From assembly GCA_011321815.1 (NCBI GenBank), contig DROS01000040.1:124001-188000 (forward strand): DNA of 64,000 nt, written 5' to 3'. The DNA is from Gammaproteobacteria bacterium. GTDB taxonomy: Bacteria; Pseudomonadota; Gammaproteobacteria; SZUA-152. Position numbers and translations under genes: made by a program. Each line of letters starts with the position of its first letter. Positions within the stretch are counted from its first letter, which is position 1. Of the stretch, positions 3,993 to 25,120 are shown piece after piece. A model generated the notes under the pieces. The model was given only the letters and a program-made list of their open reading frames with translations. It was not told the origin of the DNA and ran no database searches.

Positions 3993-4589
3993 CTATTCGG
4001 CAGCCAAGGTCCGTTCAATCAATGCACACACAATATGCCCTATGGTGATGTGCGCTTCCTGAATGCGCGCAGTGTTGTTTGAGGGCACTTTCAGGCAGAT
4101 ATCACATAAGGCTTCCAGTTTGCCGCCGGACTGCCCGGTCATACCCACCACAACCAGGCCGCGTGCTTTGGCAACTTTTGCCACTGCCACCACATTGGCT
4201 GAGTTGCCGGAGGTGGATAATCCGAAAAATACATCCCCTTTTTTGGCAAACGCCTGTAGCTGACGGGAAAATACAGCTTCATAGCCATAGTCATTGGAAA
4301 GCGCAGTGAGTTGCGAAGCGTTGGTGGTGAGTGCCATGGCGGGCAGCCCATCACGCTCCAGTTCAAAACGGCCGACCAGTTCAGCAGCAATGTGCTGGGC
4401 ATCAGAAGCACTGCCACCGTTACCGGCTAACAGCAATTTGTTATTTCCACGCAATGCATTGATACAAAATTGTGCTACGCCGGCAATACGGGCGAGCATG
4501 TCTGTGTCCATTATCAGGCGCTGTTTGACGTCAATAGAGTCCTGTAACAGGGCTTTGATGGTGGTGGTTTCTCCCCCGGCGTCAGTCAT
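3993..4589 (-). CDS. gmhA: Sedoheptulose 7-phosphate isomerase GmhA
   Basis: First step of ADP-heptose synthesis for the LPS inner core: sedoheptulose 7-phosphate to D-glycero-D-manno-heptose 7-phosphate, in the cytoplasm. The 198-aa protein is a single SIS domain with the phosphate-binding GNGGSASDAQH motif, LSTSGNSANV, and a C-terminal TARIQEAHITIGH with the conserved glutamate and histidine. Spacing and motifs fit GmhA better than the related DnaA-binding DiaA, which lacks the metal-site histidine. The gene is on its own and convergent with the preceding group. Its product would feed the heptosyltransferase-like enzyme encoded near 31-32 kb. Confidence 0.88.
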   Translation of the reverse strand: MTDAGGETTTIKALLQDSIDVKQRLIMDTDMLARIAGVAQFCINALRGNNKLLLAGNGGSASDAQHIAAELVGRFELERDGLPAMALTTNASQLTALSNDYGYEAVFSRQLQAFAKKGDVFFGLSTSGNSANVVAVAKVAKARGLVVVGMTGQSGGKLEALCDICLKVPSNNTARIQEAHITIGHIVCALIERTLAAE

Positions 4590-5484: not shown

Positions 5485-5542
5485 CGCGGTTTAACACAAT
5501 AAAAAAACAGCTCGCGGTCTGAGCAGGAGAGGTAGCAACACG

Positions 5543-6220
5543 ATGACTCGTGGATTGATTATATTACTCTTTGCATCCGGGGTGTTAATGTATCTTCTTA
5601 CCGCCTGTACACCCAGTTCAAACTCGACCACGCGCAGTGCCCGATATGTGGTGGAAGGTGGCGTGAGTGAAGGTAAGCGCTGGCGGGATGATCGTCATTT
5701 TGCCGTTGAGGTGGAAACCGAAGCGCTGGCAACTGATGGCATACACGACCCCGACAGCGATGCCATCAGTGCCTTACAAGATCCTGCTGAAGCACTTAGT
5801 GCCTTTCCGCTGGGCCGTCGGGGTGATGTCGATTGGGTCAAGGCTCTGGACTTGGGTATTATCGAGCCGCGTGCTGACTTGCTGGGAAAAACTGAAATGA
5901 CGGTGCTGGATCTGGATATCATGTTCAAAAACACAGGCCAGATGCCTTGGGTAAAATTCCCGCACATCGCACACACCAAATGGCTGGCCTGCTCCAATTG
6001 TCATCCGGCGATATTCATTGAAAAAAAGGGGGCCAACAAACTTTCCATGGATGGCATTCTGGCGGGTGAATATTGTGGTCGTTGCCACGACAAAGTCGCC
6101 TTTTCCCTATGGACTTGCGAACGTTGCCACAACACTCCCCACGAAGGTACCCCAAAGCGCTGGATTGAATTAATGGGTGTGAGGCCTGGATCAAACGCTG
6201 CCGGTGATGGCAACGAATAA
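5543..6220 (+). CDS. Triheme c-type cytochrome lipoprotein (cytochrome c7-like)
   Basis: A 225-aa protein with a lipoprotein signal (lipobox LTAC, Cys22). It has a linker of about 110 residues, then three CxxCH haem sites at residues 150-154, 178-182 and 192-196. The spacing, together with the upstream VKFPHIAHTKW segment carrying candidate axial histidines, fits the c(7)-type triheme domain family. A role as a periplasmic or membrane-anchored electron carrier is inferred; no partner oxidoreductase is encoded next to it. A good ribosome site (GGAGAGG) precedes the ATG. The gene is codirectional with the upstream ankyrin lipoprotein and convergent with the downstream one. Confidence 0.85.
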   Translation: MTRGLIILLFASGVLMYLLTACTPSSNSTTRSARYVVEGGVSEGKRWRDDRHFAVEVETEALATDGIHDPDSDAISALQDPAEALSAFPLGRRGDVDWVKALDLGIIEPRADLLGKTEMTVLDLDIMFKNTGQMPWVKFPHIAHTKWLACSNCHPAIFIEKKGANKLSMDGILAGEYCGRCHDKVAFSLWTCERCHNTPHEGTPKRWIELMGVRPGSNAAGDGNE

Positions 6221-18924: not shown

Positions 18925-20166
18925 TTATTGGGGTGCCAGGCAATCGGCGAGTAACTCGACCCAGTGTTTTATGGGCACATTGGCGCCCTGCCGTAAATGC
19001 AACAGGCAACCAATATTGGCGCTGGCAATCACTGCCGGTGAGCCGGCTTGCAAGGCAGCCAGTTTATTGGCCTGTAATTGCTCGGACAACATGGGCTGAA
19101 AAATAGAATATGTGCCCGCAGCACCGCAGCATAAATGGCTGTCTTTCACTGTCACCAGTTCAAATTCACATCGGGCCAGAATATGTTCCACCACGCCGGT
19201 AAGGCGCTGGCCATGCTGCAAGGTACAAGGGGCGTGGAACGCGATGCGTGCTTGCGGTTCAAGCACCGATATAACGTCGGCCACGGGCTCGGCGGCAAGC
19301 AATTCCGAGACATCTTTTACCAGTCCGGAAATTTTTGCTGCCTTTTCTGCGTAGTGCTTGTCGAACCGCAAATAGTGAGCATAGTCCTTTACCTGCAAAC
19401 CACAGGCGCTGGCGGTACTGACAATGGCTTCAATCCGGTTATGGGAATGTTCGTCCAGATAGGGCCACCAGGCATCAATATTGCGGCGCATAAATGCCGC
19501 GGCACTTTCTGCGCTGGACAAATGCTGATTCAAGGCGCCACAGCAGCCGCCCGCAGCTGCCCGCAGGGTGCTGATGCCCAGACTGTCCAGCACCCGCGCA
19601 GTGGCCAGGTTGATTTCCGGGGCGGCCACTGACTGCACACAGCCATCCAGTAACAGCACTCGCCGTGCATGTCGTGCTATGGGCCACTGGCCCACCGCAG
19701 CTGCCCGTGGTGGAATGGCCTTGCGCAGCATTCCAGGCAACAAAAATGCGACCTTGCGTGCCATGCCTGCGCCAACAGCAAAACGTTTTGGGAAGGGCAC
19801 CAACTGTAAAAGAAGCCAGCGTAGCAGGCGTTCGGGTAATGGTCGTTTGATCAGACTTTCGACATGTTCACGTCCAATATCCAACAAACGGCTGTATTCA
19901 ACGCCGGAAGGACAAGTCGTTTCACAGTTGCGGCAAGTGAGGCAGCGATCCAGGTGCTCGCGTGCAATTTCACCGTCGGTTTGTCCTTCCAGCAACTGTT
20001 TGATGAGATAAATACGCCCGCGTGGACCATCCAGTTCATCATTTTGCAATTGATATGTGGGACAGGTGGCATTGCAAAAACCGCAATGCACGCAGCGCCG
20101 TAAAATGTTATTGGCTTCCTGGCCCTGCCCAGTGGACAAAAATTCAACAGGTAACTGAGTCTGCAT
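18925..20166 (-). CDS. glcF: Glycolate oxidase iron-sulfur subunit GlcF
   Basis: Electron-transfer subunit of the membrane-associated glycolate dehydrogenase GlcDEF. The 413-aa protein carries two 4Fe-4S ferredoxin motifs near the N-terminus (CVHCGFCNATCP and CLTCRNCETTCP). It also has two CCG domains with GGCCGAL and LCCGAAG, the heterodisulfide-reductase-type arrangement. Its start directly abuts the glcE stop codon, implying translational coupling. Confidence 0.95.
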   Translation of the reverse strand: MQTQLPVEFLSTGQGQEANNILRRCVHCGFCNATCPTYQLQNDELDGPRGRIYLIKQLLEGQTDGEIAREHLDRCLTCRNCETTCPSGVEYSRLLDIGREHVESLIKRPLPERLLRWLLLQLVPFPKRFAVGAGMARKVAFLLPGMLRKAIPPRAAAVGQWPIARHARRVLLLDGCVQSVAAPEINLATARVLDSLGISTLRAAAGGCCGALNQHLSSAESAAAFMRRNIDAWWPYLDEHSHNRIEAIVSTASACGLQVKDYAHYLRFDKHYAEKAAKISGLVKDVSELLAAEPVADVISVLEPQARIAFHAPCTLQHGQRLTGVVEHILARCEFELVTVKDSHLCCGAAGTYSIFQPMLSEQLQANKLAALQAGSPAVIASANIGCLLHLRQGANVPIKHWVELLADCLAPQ

Positions 20167-21291
20167 TTACAGACCCTCGTACAGGCGGCCAGGGTTCAAA
20201 ATCCCTTCAGGATCGAAGGCCGTTTTTATCTGCCGGTGCATTTTGATCAGTGCAGGACTTAGTGGCGCGAGTGTTGCGCCTTCCTGGTCAAACAGTGTGG
20301 CGTGTCCCCCCATTTTTTGTGCAGCCGCCTGTACTGTGTCAGCGCCAGCATCGGTTTTTAGCCAACGTTGCGCGCCGCCCCAGTCCAGGAGACATTCACC
20401 TGGCAATGTTTCGGTAAATACGGGCGTGGCCGGTGGCACCGACAAGCGCCACAGCCTATTTGCATCGGTAAAAAAGGGCAGCCGACGTTCGCGCAAGTCC
20501 TGCCAGAATGCGTCAGCCTGCCCATCGCCATTTTTCTTTTCGGTTACGGAAAGAGTCTGTTGTTCTTTTTGAAGCTGTTTTTGAATAAAGGTCACCGCAG
20601 CCATTATGGTTTCTTCCGTGCCAGACAAGCGCAAATACAATTGCGCGGTTTGTTGGGGTGTTGCGGGCAAATGACAGGCTGCTGTCAAAGGCAGAGCGAA
20701 ATTTGCCAGTTGTGTCATCACCGCGATAGCTGTTCCGGTATCCATGTCCATGATCAGTGTGTGCTCACAAACCGGTCGTGGCAGTACCTTCAGTGATATT
20801 TCCAGCAACACACCCAGAGTACCCTGTGCACCCACCATCAGGCGTGACGCGTCATAGCCAGCGACATTTTTCATTACCCGGCCACCAAAGCTGAGTATCT
20901 CGCCGCGGCCATTGATTATCCGTGCGCCTAAGGTGAAATCACGGGCGGCACCGGCATACGGACGACGCGGGCCTGACAAGCCACAGGCGATAGTGCCGCC
21001 CAGGGTCGCATCTTTTCCTAAATAGGGTGGTTCAAAGGGCAACATCTGCCCGGATTCAGCGAGCACAGACTCCAGCGTTTGCAGTGAAGTGCCAGCCCGC
21101 GCGGTGATCACCAGTTCGGTGGGGGTATAGTCCACGATGCCACAGTGTTTCGTTACTTCCAGGGGCTGCGCCGACACCGCACGACCGGACGATAATTTGC
21201 TGCCACTGCCGGTAATGCGCAATGGTTGTTTCCCGGCAAAAGCCTGCTGTACCTGTGCGGCCAGTTCCTGCGCGATATTCTGTTGTATCAA
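20167..21291 (-). CDS. glcE: Glycolate oxidase FAD-binding subunit GlcE
   Basis: FAD-binding PCMH-type subunit of glycolate dehydrogenase. The 374-aa protein shows GSGSKLSSG near the N-terminus, LGGTIACGLSGPRRPYAG, FGGRVMKNVAGYDASRLMVGAQGTLG in the FAD domain, and LHR-type C-terminal DPEGILNPGRLY. The start is a TTG at 21291 that overlaps the stop (TTGA) of a leftover glcD-like 3' end. That is the coupling expected if a glcD gene once ended exactly there. The present full-length glcD ends 293 bp further upstream. Confidence 0.93.
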   Translation of the reverse strand: MIQQNIAQELAAQVQQAFAGKQPLRITGSGSKLSSGRAVSAQPLEVTKHCGIVDYTPTELVITARAGTSLQTLESVLAESGQMLPFEPPYLGKDATLGGTIACGLSGPRRPYAGAARDFTLGARIINGRGEILSFGGRVMKNVAGYDASRLMVGAQGTLGVLLEISLKVLPRPVCEHTLIMDMDTGTAIAVMTQLANFALPLTAACHLPATPQQTAQLYLRLSGTEETIMAAVTFIQKQLQKEQQTLSVTEKKNGDGQADAFWQDLRERRLPFFTDANRLWRLSVPPATPVFTETLPGECLLDWGGAQRWLKTDAGADTVQAAAQKMGGHATLFDQEGATLAPLSPALIKMHRQIKTAFDPEGILNPGRLYEGL

Positions 21292-21366
21292 AACTGCTCC
21301 AGCTCAGGGAAAGACATTTTGCCGTGATGTACATGCGTGGTAGCGAATGCGGCGCAACGATGTAAA
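21288..21366 (-). pseudogene. Second, diverged 3' end of glcD
   Basis: Minus-strand translation gives a tail of the form LHRCAAFATTHVHHGKM followed by SFPELEQF and a stop. The end of the intact GlcD is LHRCAEFGAMHVHHGEV followed by PFPELERF. The DNA of the two copies (here and 21584-21665) is clearly alignable over about 75 bp but with many substitutions. No upstream part of glcD is present at this copy. Its stop overlaps the glcE start. Confidence 0.85.
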
Positions 21367-21378
21367 GAAAGTAGGTCC

Positions 21379-21468
21379 AAAATACCCGCACGCATCTAAC
21401 GGTATATTATGTTTCTTTTGGTTGAGTTTATCTTTTTCTTCGTCCCATTTATATAACATGCCCGCCAT
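21379..21468 (-). pseudogene. Truncated BrnT-like (DUF497) toxin fragment
   Basis: From the ATG at 21468 the frame reads about 30 residues containing YKWDEEKDKLNQKKH, like the start of BrnT toxins (WDExKxxxNxxKH). It then runs out of similarity at the junction with the glcD tail remnant. The remaining two thirds of a toxin and any BrnA antitoxin are absent, so it is a fragment, not a functional module. Confidence 0.5.
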
Positions 21469-21479
21469 CAGTCTTTTCC

Positions 21480-21584
21480 TCATAACGGAACAAAGCCACA
21501 CACGACCACAACATCACCCACGGGCAATACCTGAAGTTGAACGGGCTTCAATCCAAAATCATACGCAACGTATGTCTGTGCCAT
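21480..21584 (-). CDS. Small ORF of 34 codons coupled to glcD stop
   Basis: Starts at an ATG overlapping the glcD stop (TAATG) and encodes a 34-aa hydrophobic peptide ending VVVVCGFVPL. It is followed 12 bp later by the BrnT-like fragment. I do not recognise it; it may be the remnant of the inserted segment rather than a real gene. Confidence 0.25.
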   Translation of the reverse strand: MAQTYVAYDFGLKPVQLQVLPVGDVVVVCGFVPL

Positions 21585-23059
21585 TAAAACCGCTCCAGCT
21601 CAGGGAAGGGTACTTCGCCGTGATGCACATGCATGGCGCCAAATTCAGCACAACGATGCAGAGTCGGTATTGCCTTGCCGGGATTCAGCAGACCCGCAGG
21701 GTCAAATGCCGCTTTCAGTGCATGCATTTGCTGTAACGTTGCCGATGAGAACTGGTGACACATTTGATTGATTTTTTCCACACCGACGCCGTGTTCACCG
21801 GTAATAGTGCCGCCTGCCGCCACACATAGATCCAGAATTCTGCCGCCCATTTCTTCGGTGCGCTCCAGCTCACCGGGACGGTTGGCATCGAATAGAATCA
21901 GTGGATGCAAATTGCCGTCACCGGCATGAAATACATTGGCCACCGGTAAACTGTATTCTTCAGACAGGGCGGTTATGCCCGCCAGTACTTTAGGTAGCTG
22001 GTGACGGGGAATGGTGCCATCCATGCAGTAATAGTCAGGCGAAATACGACCCACGGCCGGAAACGCCGCTTTACGGCCTTTCCAGAATTTTTCACGCTCA
22101 GCGGCGCTGGCCGCCACACGTACTTCAGTAGCCCCGCAGTCCTGCAAGACGGTTTTCACCTGTTCCACCTGCGTCACGACTTCCTGCTGGCCGCCATCCA
22201 GTTCGCACAGCAAAATTGCTGCCGCATCTTTGGGGTAACCGGCCTGGGCAAAGGCCTCGGCAGCACGTATCGCCGGGTTATCCATCATTTCCAGACCGGC
22301 GGGAATAATCCCCGCAGCAATGATTTTGCCCACGGCGTCACCGGCGTTCGCCACATCATCAAAGGCTGCCAGCAATACCTGTACGGCTTCGGGCCTGGGC
22401 AGCAGTTTGACGGTGATTTCCACAATCACCCCCAGCATGCCTTCCGAGCCGGAGAGCAGCGCCAGCAAATCAAAACCGGGGGTGTCCAGCGCATCACTGC
22501 CAATGGTGAGTCGTTCCCCTTCCATGGTGACTATTTCCAGTTTGAGAATATTGTGCACGGTGAGTCCGTATTTGAGGCAATGTACCCCCCCGGCATTTTC
22601 TGCCACATTGCCGCCGATGGAACAGGCAATTTGTGATGAAGGGTCCGGTGCGTAATACAGGTTATGCGCCGCCACAGCCTCAGAGATGGCCAGATTACGC
22701 ACGCCTGGTTGAACGCGGGCACAACGGTTTTGCAAATCGATGCCGAGAATCCGGTTAAATTTGGCCAGACTCAGCAATACGCCATCTGCCAACGGCAAGG
22801 CGCCGCCGGACAGCCCTGTGCCCGCACCGCGTGCAACCACGGGCACCTTGTGTTCACTGCAAATACGCAGTACCCGCTGCACCTGTTCCACGGTTTCCGG
22901 CAACACCACCAGTAACGGCAGTTGCCGATAGACCGACAGGCCATCGCATTCGTAGGGGCGGCGTTCTTCTTCGCGGGATAATACGGATTCAACGGCCAAA
23001 AACTGGCGAAACAACGTGGCCAGCTGATCTGCCGGCACGCTCTGAGACTCGGTTTGCAT
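21584..23059 (-). CDS. glcD: Glycolate oxidase catalytic subunit GlcD
   Basis: FAD-linked subunit that oxidises glycolate (and D-lactate) to glyoxylate. The 491-aa protein begins at the ATG at 23059 with a GGGAG ribosome site; a longer TTG reading adds seven residues. FAD-binding PCMH motifs are VVARGAGTGLSGGALPL, SSQIACSIGGNVAENAGG and LSGSEGMLGVIVEITVKLLP. The C-terminal FAD-linked oxidase domain ends with VFHAGDGNLHPLILFD, GGTITGEHGVG and FDPAGLLNPGK. It heads the minus-strand group glcD-glcE-glcF-aminotransferase, interrupted by the 290-bp segment described separately. Confidence 0.95.
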   Translation of the reverse strand: MQTESQSVPADQLATLFRQFLAVESVLSREEERRPYECDGLSVYRQLPLLVVLPETVEQVQRVLRICSEHKVPVVARGAGTGLSGGALPLADGVLLSLAKFNRILGIDLQNRCARVQPGVRNLAISEAVAAHNLYYAPDPSSQIACSIGGNVAENAGGVHCLKYGLTVHNILKLEIVTMEGERLTIGSDALDTPGFDLLALLSGSEGMLGVIVEITVKLLPRPEAVQVLLAAFDDVANAGDAVGKIIAAGIIPAGLEMMDNPAIRAAEAFAQAGYPKDAAAILLCELDGGQQEVVTQVEQVKTVLQDCGATEVRVAASAAEREKFWKGRKAAFPAVGRISPDYYCMDGTIPRHQLPKVLAGITALSEEYSLPVANVFHAGDGNLHPLILFDANRPGELERTEEMGGRILDLCVAAGGTITGEHGVGVEKINQMCHQFSSATLQQMHALKAAFDPAGLLNPGKAIPTLHRCAEFGAMHVHHGEVPFPELERF

Positions 23060-23208
23060 ATATCTCCCGGAGGAATTCAAGAATTATGCGGTCAGTATAC
23101 GTTTGGGGATTTTATGGCTTCAACCCGATTTTTTATGGGTCTACTGTCTGCCGGCAATCAAGTCCGGACGGTTGTCTGAGAACAGAGAGCTTCCGGGTGC
23201 ATGGCATA

Positions 23209-24906: not shown

Positions 24907-25120
24907 CTAGTGTCGTGTCCCATATAAAACGCAGATATAGACAAGCCAAATTTGAAGTACCGGAAGAAAGTCCTTGGCTCGCCCTTTGGGAAGCCCCTCA
25001 AAGCACGAGTGCGGCGTTGCAGACCTTGGGAAGGTAGCCGACATTCCCTGCGGTCTGCGTCTTGCACTCGTGCTTTGAGGCGCTTTCTATATCCACGTTT
25101 TATATGGGACACTACACTAG
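24907..25120. mobile_element. MITE-like element (214 bp, CTAG-flanked)
   Basis: Bounded by CTAG at both ends. Terminal inverted repeats are TGTCGTGTCCCATATAAAACG on the left and its near-perfect complement on the right (one mismatch near the tip). Inside, a second perfect inverted pair CCTCAAAGCACGAGTGC / GCACTCGTGCTTTGAGG and a GCAGACC / GGTCTGC pair allow the right two thirds to fold into one long hairpin. No transposase is encoded. Ends within CTAG/TA are typical of IS630/Tc1-type insertion, which is the suggested origin. Confidence 0.8.

Follow-up and report, generated by a model that had tools for sequence, protein, structure and literature searches.

Restriction-modification (RM) genes have been described as inserting with long target duplications on the order of 100 bp (PMC3874152), and according to the summaries given in PMC3874152 and PMC3031569, such insertions were reported by Nobusato et al. 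2000 (Gene 259:99) and Furuta et al. 2010. Toxin-antitoxin (TA) modules are clearly mobile, and their phylogeny differs from the phylogeny of the hosts (PMC2654758). A limited literature search returned no description of long target duplications for TA modules.

A comparable arrangement is found between glcD and glcE in the window, by which is meant the whole stretch of 64,000 nucleotides that was analyzed. Very probably, this site records the insertion of a BrnT cassette with a target duplication of ~220 bp, the spread of that cassette between species, and its subsequent decay in the window lineage. Three features of insertions with long target duplications are present, namely an empty site in relatives, long and variable direct copies of the target, and an addiction-type module between them that carries no transposase or other mobility gene. 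Unlike the RM insertions, the cargo is a BrnT TA module, the target copies have diverged and one of them is an interspecies recombinant, and the window itself retains only a decayed form. The architecture would work like an RM-type long target duplication.

Two other types of systems also share features with this locus. In BrnT/BrnA type II modules (PF04365), as in the complete cassettes of two congeners, a full BrnT gene is followed directly by a small partner ORF. However, the partner in the glcDE cassette is not recognized as BrnA and has a third small ORF behind it (one other locus of the genus, described below, shows this order too), and the window keeps only ~24 toxin codons. Integrative elements at gene 3′ ends likewise leave the gene end present twice, once whole and once displaced, but no integrase is found at this site and the repeat spans a two-gene junction rather than a short core.

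Duplicated glcD tail and the remnant between its copies

All features of the locus lie on the minus strand. The intact, native glcD gene (21584..23080) is identified as GlcD by NCBIfam NF008408 with 866 bits. It is followed by the remnant of a cassette leader (21463..21583), recognized from an alignment of the three inserts known from the window and the congeners G002 and G006, and by approximately the first 24 codons of a truncated BrnT toxin gene (21391..21462). A second glcD tail, now non-coding, forms the right-hand target copy (21288..21380, with an approximate left boundary), and glcE (20167..21291) and glcF (18925-20166) complete the series. No tRNA or known RNA was found in the window.

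The initial annotation had noted that about 25 terminal codons of glcD occur a second time, in diverged form, immediately before glcE, and this is borne out. A repeat search aligned 21279-21367 with 21575-21663 over 89 nt without gaps at 76% identity. When the locus was compared with itself by blastn (L059), a match of 84 bp at 77% identity was returned with E = 1e-13, so the repeat is not due to chance. The left-hand target copy comprises the last ~140 bp of glcD, and its alignment with the second tail covers 89 bp (21575-21663). On the minus strand, that tail reads HRCAAFATTHVHHGKMSFPELEQF, compared to HRCAEFGAMHVHHGEVPFPELERF in the intact glcD, and a stop follows in each case. Between the second tail and the native tail of the same genome, 8.5 nonsynonymous differences are found in 75 bp, compared to none among the native tails of the window genome and the congeners G003, G007, and G009. 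Thus, the second tail is no longer kept as a protein. A recent tandem duplication of the glcD tail had also been denied in the initial annotation, and this judgment was right.

As had also been described, the TGA stop of the second tail (21288-21290) overlaps the TTG start of glcE (21289-21291). In the uninserted congeners glcE begins with ATG, which at 21287-21291 reads ATA in the window and in G002, so that translation probably starts at the TTG immediately before it. The first codons of glcE read IQQNIAQ in the window genome and in G002, whereas those of uninserted genomes are of the MAQDVSNDL type. Translational coupling of glcE to glcD has been lost with the insertion. The possibility that the second tail is a part of glcE itself was rejected, as uninserted glcE genes carry no such extension. 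Separately, the C-terminus of GlcE resembles an upstream part of GlcD.

The two tails are offset by 296 bp, and the stretch between them is not an ordinary spacer. It contains the short open stretch MLYKWDEEKDKLNQKKHNIPLDA, which corresponds to the start of BrnT, together with a leader that is common to the intact cassettes of the two congeners. The BrnT fragment is short and matches positions 1-24 of PF04365 with 17.5 bits, which is below the cut-off. Its ~24 codons (21391-21462, or 145391-145462 of contig C40 in the window genome) share 75% identity with residues 2-25 of the complete BrnT from G006.

Elsewhere in the window, a 214-bp non-coding unit resembling a MITE is present at 24907-25120. 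Its inverted repeats of 35 nt are 91% complementary, with a 22-nt pair further inside, and the genome holds two more near-full-length copies (94% and 84%) as well as shorter matches.

Complete cassettes, empty sites and host-gene divergence

The genomes G002 (contig JALSGT010000057.1) and G006 (WFQM01000080.1) carry an insert of ~1.2 kb exactly at the glcD/glcE junction. In both, intact glcD is followed by ~78 bp of the head of glcE, the leader, BrnT, a 70-aa ORF, a 58-aa ORF, a short spacer, a second glcD tail of ~47 codons, and then the real glcE. The BrnT protein of the inserts has 95 aa, and that of G006 matches PF04365 over positions 1-77 of 77 with 77.4 bits (cut-off 34.5). The 70-aa ORF lies directly downstream of BrnT, in the antitoxin position, and is a putative antitoxin by this placement; it matches no BrnA model, and its only hit is to RHH_7 with E = 0.02. 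A second BrnT locus of the genus (L044, in G003:C64, 1501-2163) has the same three-ORF order, with BrnT followed by an antitoxin-like ORF and a second antitoxin-like ORF that bears an ...AKNDLDAP... motif. Since this locus repeats the order of the glcDE cassette, such BrnT modules may regularly include the third ORF. The module is predicted to be an active toxin-antitoxin pair.

The insert of the window aligns with those of G002 and G006 in the leader and the first BrnT codons, and the rest is absent. Its leader has internal deletions relative to both, and the stub of the glcE head that follows glcD in the complete inserts is missing. On this alignment, the window insert is a deletion remnant of a cassette of the G002/G006 type. 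The first of its deletions has brought the glcD stop next to the leader, with the junction at ATGGCACAG. This string is also part of the leader in G002 and of the glcE head in G006, which makes a deletion through short homology likely.

Direct repeats of 223 bp (79% identity) flank the insert in G002 and of 183 bp (93%) in G006, with ~80-90 bp left in the window, and they consist of plain glcD/glcE sequence. A six-frame reading of the complete 1.2-kb inserts of G002 and G006 yielded three small ORFs only, with no transposase or integrase, and terminal inverted repeats of the insert were not obvious by eye. These observations bear on the idea that the locus is what remains of an integrase-borne island at the glcD 3′ end, with the gene end restored on one side (attL/attR). 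Such islands typically leave a duplicated gene end and a displaced tail, and two distant BrnT relatives (L067 and L068) adjoin a tyrosine recombinase-like ORF. However, the complete inserts lack an integrase and the repeat extends for ~220 bp over two genes instead of forming a short core, which leaves an island origin very improbable. The two relatives just mentioned are near-identical contigs of one MAG, in which the recombinase-like ORF is immediately followed by a BrnT of 66% identity (L067, 16-1236), and they represent a different carrier for the same toxin type.

Sampling of the site covered three occupied genomes (the window genome, G002, and G006) and three close empty ones, all of them draft MAGs in which the tails are short. 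In the empty genomes (G003, G007, and G009), which supply the relatives that the initial annotation proposed to look for, the glcD stop overlaps or abuts glcE. These three genomes uphold the view that, ancestrally, the stop of glcD overlapped the start of glcE. In a further genome, G004, the contig C276 (L040) ends at glcD codon 467, within what is a duplicated stretch in other species, and the genome yielded no ordinary glcE; an assembly break induced by a repeat would look like this. In G005, the glcE match stops at codon 63.

The explanation first offered for the two tails was that an incoming or duplicated glcD had taken the place of the resident gene, of which only the tail survived. Such a replacement would account for two diverged tails and for a second tail that is joined to glcE by an overlap of the ancestral type. 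Nevertheless, in each of the three occupied genomes the tails are separated by a BrnT cassette or by what is left of one, and the repeat in G002 and G006 includes a stub of the glcE head that replacement does not predict. Furthermore, the body of glcD has no foreign signal. Against G003, G006, G007, and G009, the pS of the intact window glcD is 0.46-0.55 compared to 0.53-0.56 for glcE, the window glcD falls inside the genus in the glcD tree, and its native tail has no amino-acid difference from uninserted relatives. Because glcD shows neither excess divergence nor a misplaced position and its tail protein is identical, there is no sign that the gene was replaced. Overall, the initial annotation was right about a real tail of no recent duplication and about the ancestral junction, but gene replacement as the origin of the second tail is very hard to sustain.

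Divergence within the cassette differs from that of its host genes. Between G002 and G006, the cassette ORFs have pS 0.19 and pN 0.022, and they are under purifying selection; the same pair has pS 0.56 in glcE and 0.57 in the 225-bp piece of glcD that could be compared. On the strength of this difference (0.19 versus 0.56-0.57), the cassette was shared between the two lineages after their host genes had split.

The second tail of G006 is a mosaic. To the left of about -67 nt from the stop, 13 informative sites are like the cassette (that is, like the second tail of G002) and two are like the host, whereas to the right of this point three are cassette-like and 28 are host-like (p = 5e-7). Five of the left-side states in this tail are found only in the two second tails of G002 and G006. 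By its pattern of sites, the tail is a recombinant with a crossover inside it, and therefore flanking homology would have been used. The mosaic fits re-entry of the cassette by homologous recombination, and it could alternatively have been produced by conversion between the genome's own two copies after vertical inheritance.

Direct repeats at other BrnT loci

A survey of 120 BrnT loci from 369 gammaproteobacterial genomes, of which 116 were usable, scored direct repeats at least 50 bp long of which there were two copies and no more, with a single copy on either side and both within 1.5 kb. Controls were 188 points obtained from these loci by a shift of 3.3 kb, and 47 loci of cold-shock genes. 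Flanking repeats were found at 18 of the 116 BrnT loci compared to six of the 188 shifted points (p = 2.5e-4, for loci that are not fully independent), and at none of the 47 cold-shock loci (p = 0.002). ParE/RelE loci, with 5/68, were indistinguishable from controls (p = 0.07). The counts for BrnT and shifted points change with the rules applied, from 18/116 versus 6/188 to 21/120 versus 6/177 or 14/116 versus 3/189.

On individual reading, several of these repeats are copies of an end of an adjacent gene. At L155, a 219-codon gene has its last 356 bp repeated beyond the insertion (4134-4489 and 5505-5860, 94% identity), a BrnT pair is inserted behind that gene in the opposite orientation, and a congener has a single tail at the corresponding gene. 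The repeat is the 3′ part of a 589-codon gene at L139 (75%), of a 980-codon gene at L137 (242 bp, 91%), and of a 491-codon gene at L223, and at L238 it is the start region of a gene. Outside the survey, in a Planctomycetota MAG (L073, DUZJ01000018.1), a different, frameshifted BrnT and a partner ORF lie between the putative 3′ end of mnmE and a putative mutS, and an 89-bp stretch of the end of mnmE, as that gene was read, is copied on the far side at 92% identity. The other counted repeats are intergenic or of unsettled nature, and the number 18 is thus an upper figure for target duplications. Several candidates were not accepted as such: the repeats of L058 are part of the region of a REP-type transposase gene, that of L047 is 40 bp long and of unsettled nature, and L190 and L204 are multi-copy arrays.

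The enrichment of repeats around BrnT suggests a recurrent insertion route. It also bears on a history in which the glcD/glcE junction was first duplicated in tandem and only later received the TA module between the copies. The same final order of parts would result, and flanking repeats do occur at six of the 188 shifted control points. Even so, this sequence of steps needs two events, none of the genomes examined has the duplication without cassette sequence, and the recurrent association of BrnT with repeats elsewhere would be left unexplained, so that a duplication preceding the insertion has very little probability.

Proposed history and its meaning

The preferred history, a BrnT insertion with a long target duplication, would begin with the entry of a three-ORF cassette of the BrnT family (type II toxin-antitoxin) at the glcD/glcE junction in a member of the genus. 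A direct target duplication of ~220 bp, made up of the last ~140 bp of glcD and the first ~78 bp of glcE, would have flanked the insertion from then on. In this arrangement, the 3′ end of glcD would stay complete and glcE would retain a start region of its own; with both genes unbroken, insertion into the operon would cost little. The cassette would then have passed between congeners by homologous recombination in the flanking glcD and glcE sequences. Most of it would have been lost to deletions in the window lineage. What remains is a piece of the leader, ~24 BrnT codons, and the glcD tail on the right-hand side, the last of which would now drift as non-coding DNA.

Insertion at the junction is well supported. 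The duplication is inferred to stem either from a long target duplication made at insertion or from the entry of a circle, in which case a circle that carries the module and a piece of glcDE from another strain would enter by a single crossover. The target copies now differ by 7-24% and have recombined. Once present, the repeats would allow excision and re-entry by homologous recombination.

A broader and more tentative proposal, which is possible but on balance doubtful, is that TA modules with long target duplications are mobile units without a transposase, for which the duplicated host sequence serves as a portable homology arm. Recombination between the copies would free a circle composed of the module and one copy. 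A single crossover at the same host gene might then take this circle into the genome of a different strain or species and restore both copies there, while the toxin would penalize loss of the module. Under this proposal, the recombinant second tail of G006 is the trace that circle re-entry would be expected to leave.

In the window itself, the finding amounts to a modest scar, and its weight grows if the survey signal holds. The case illustrates how a module may come to lie inside a metabolic operon with the genes on both sides intact. The complete cassette carries no mobility gene although TA modules are mobile, and recurring scars of this type hint at how modules that lack a transposase move. 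A long target duplication is a visible scar, and together with empty sites in relatives it allows insertions to be polarized and traced between species. The enrichment around BrnT makes a recurrent route testable, both by survey and at the bench.
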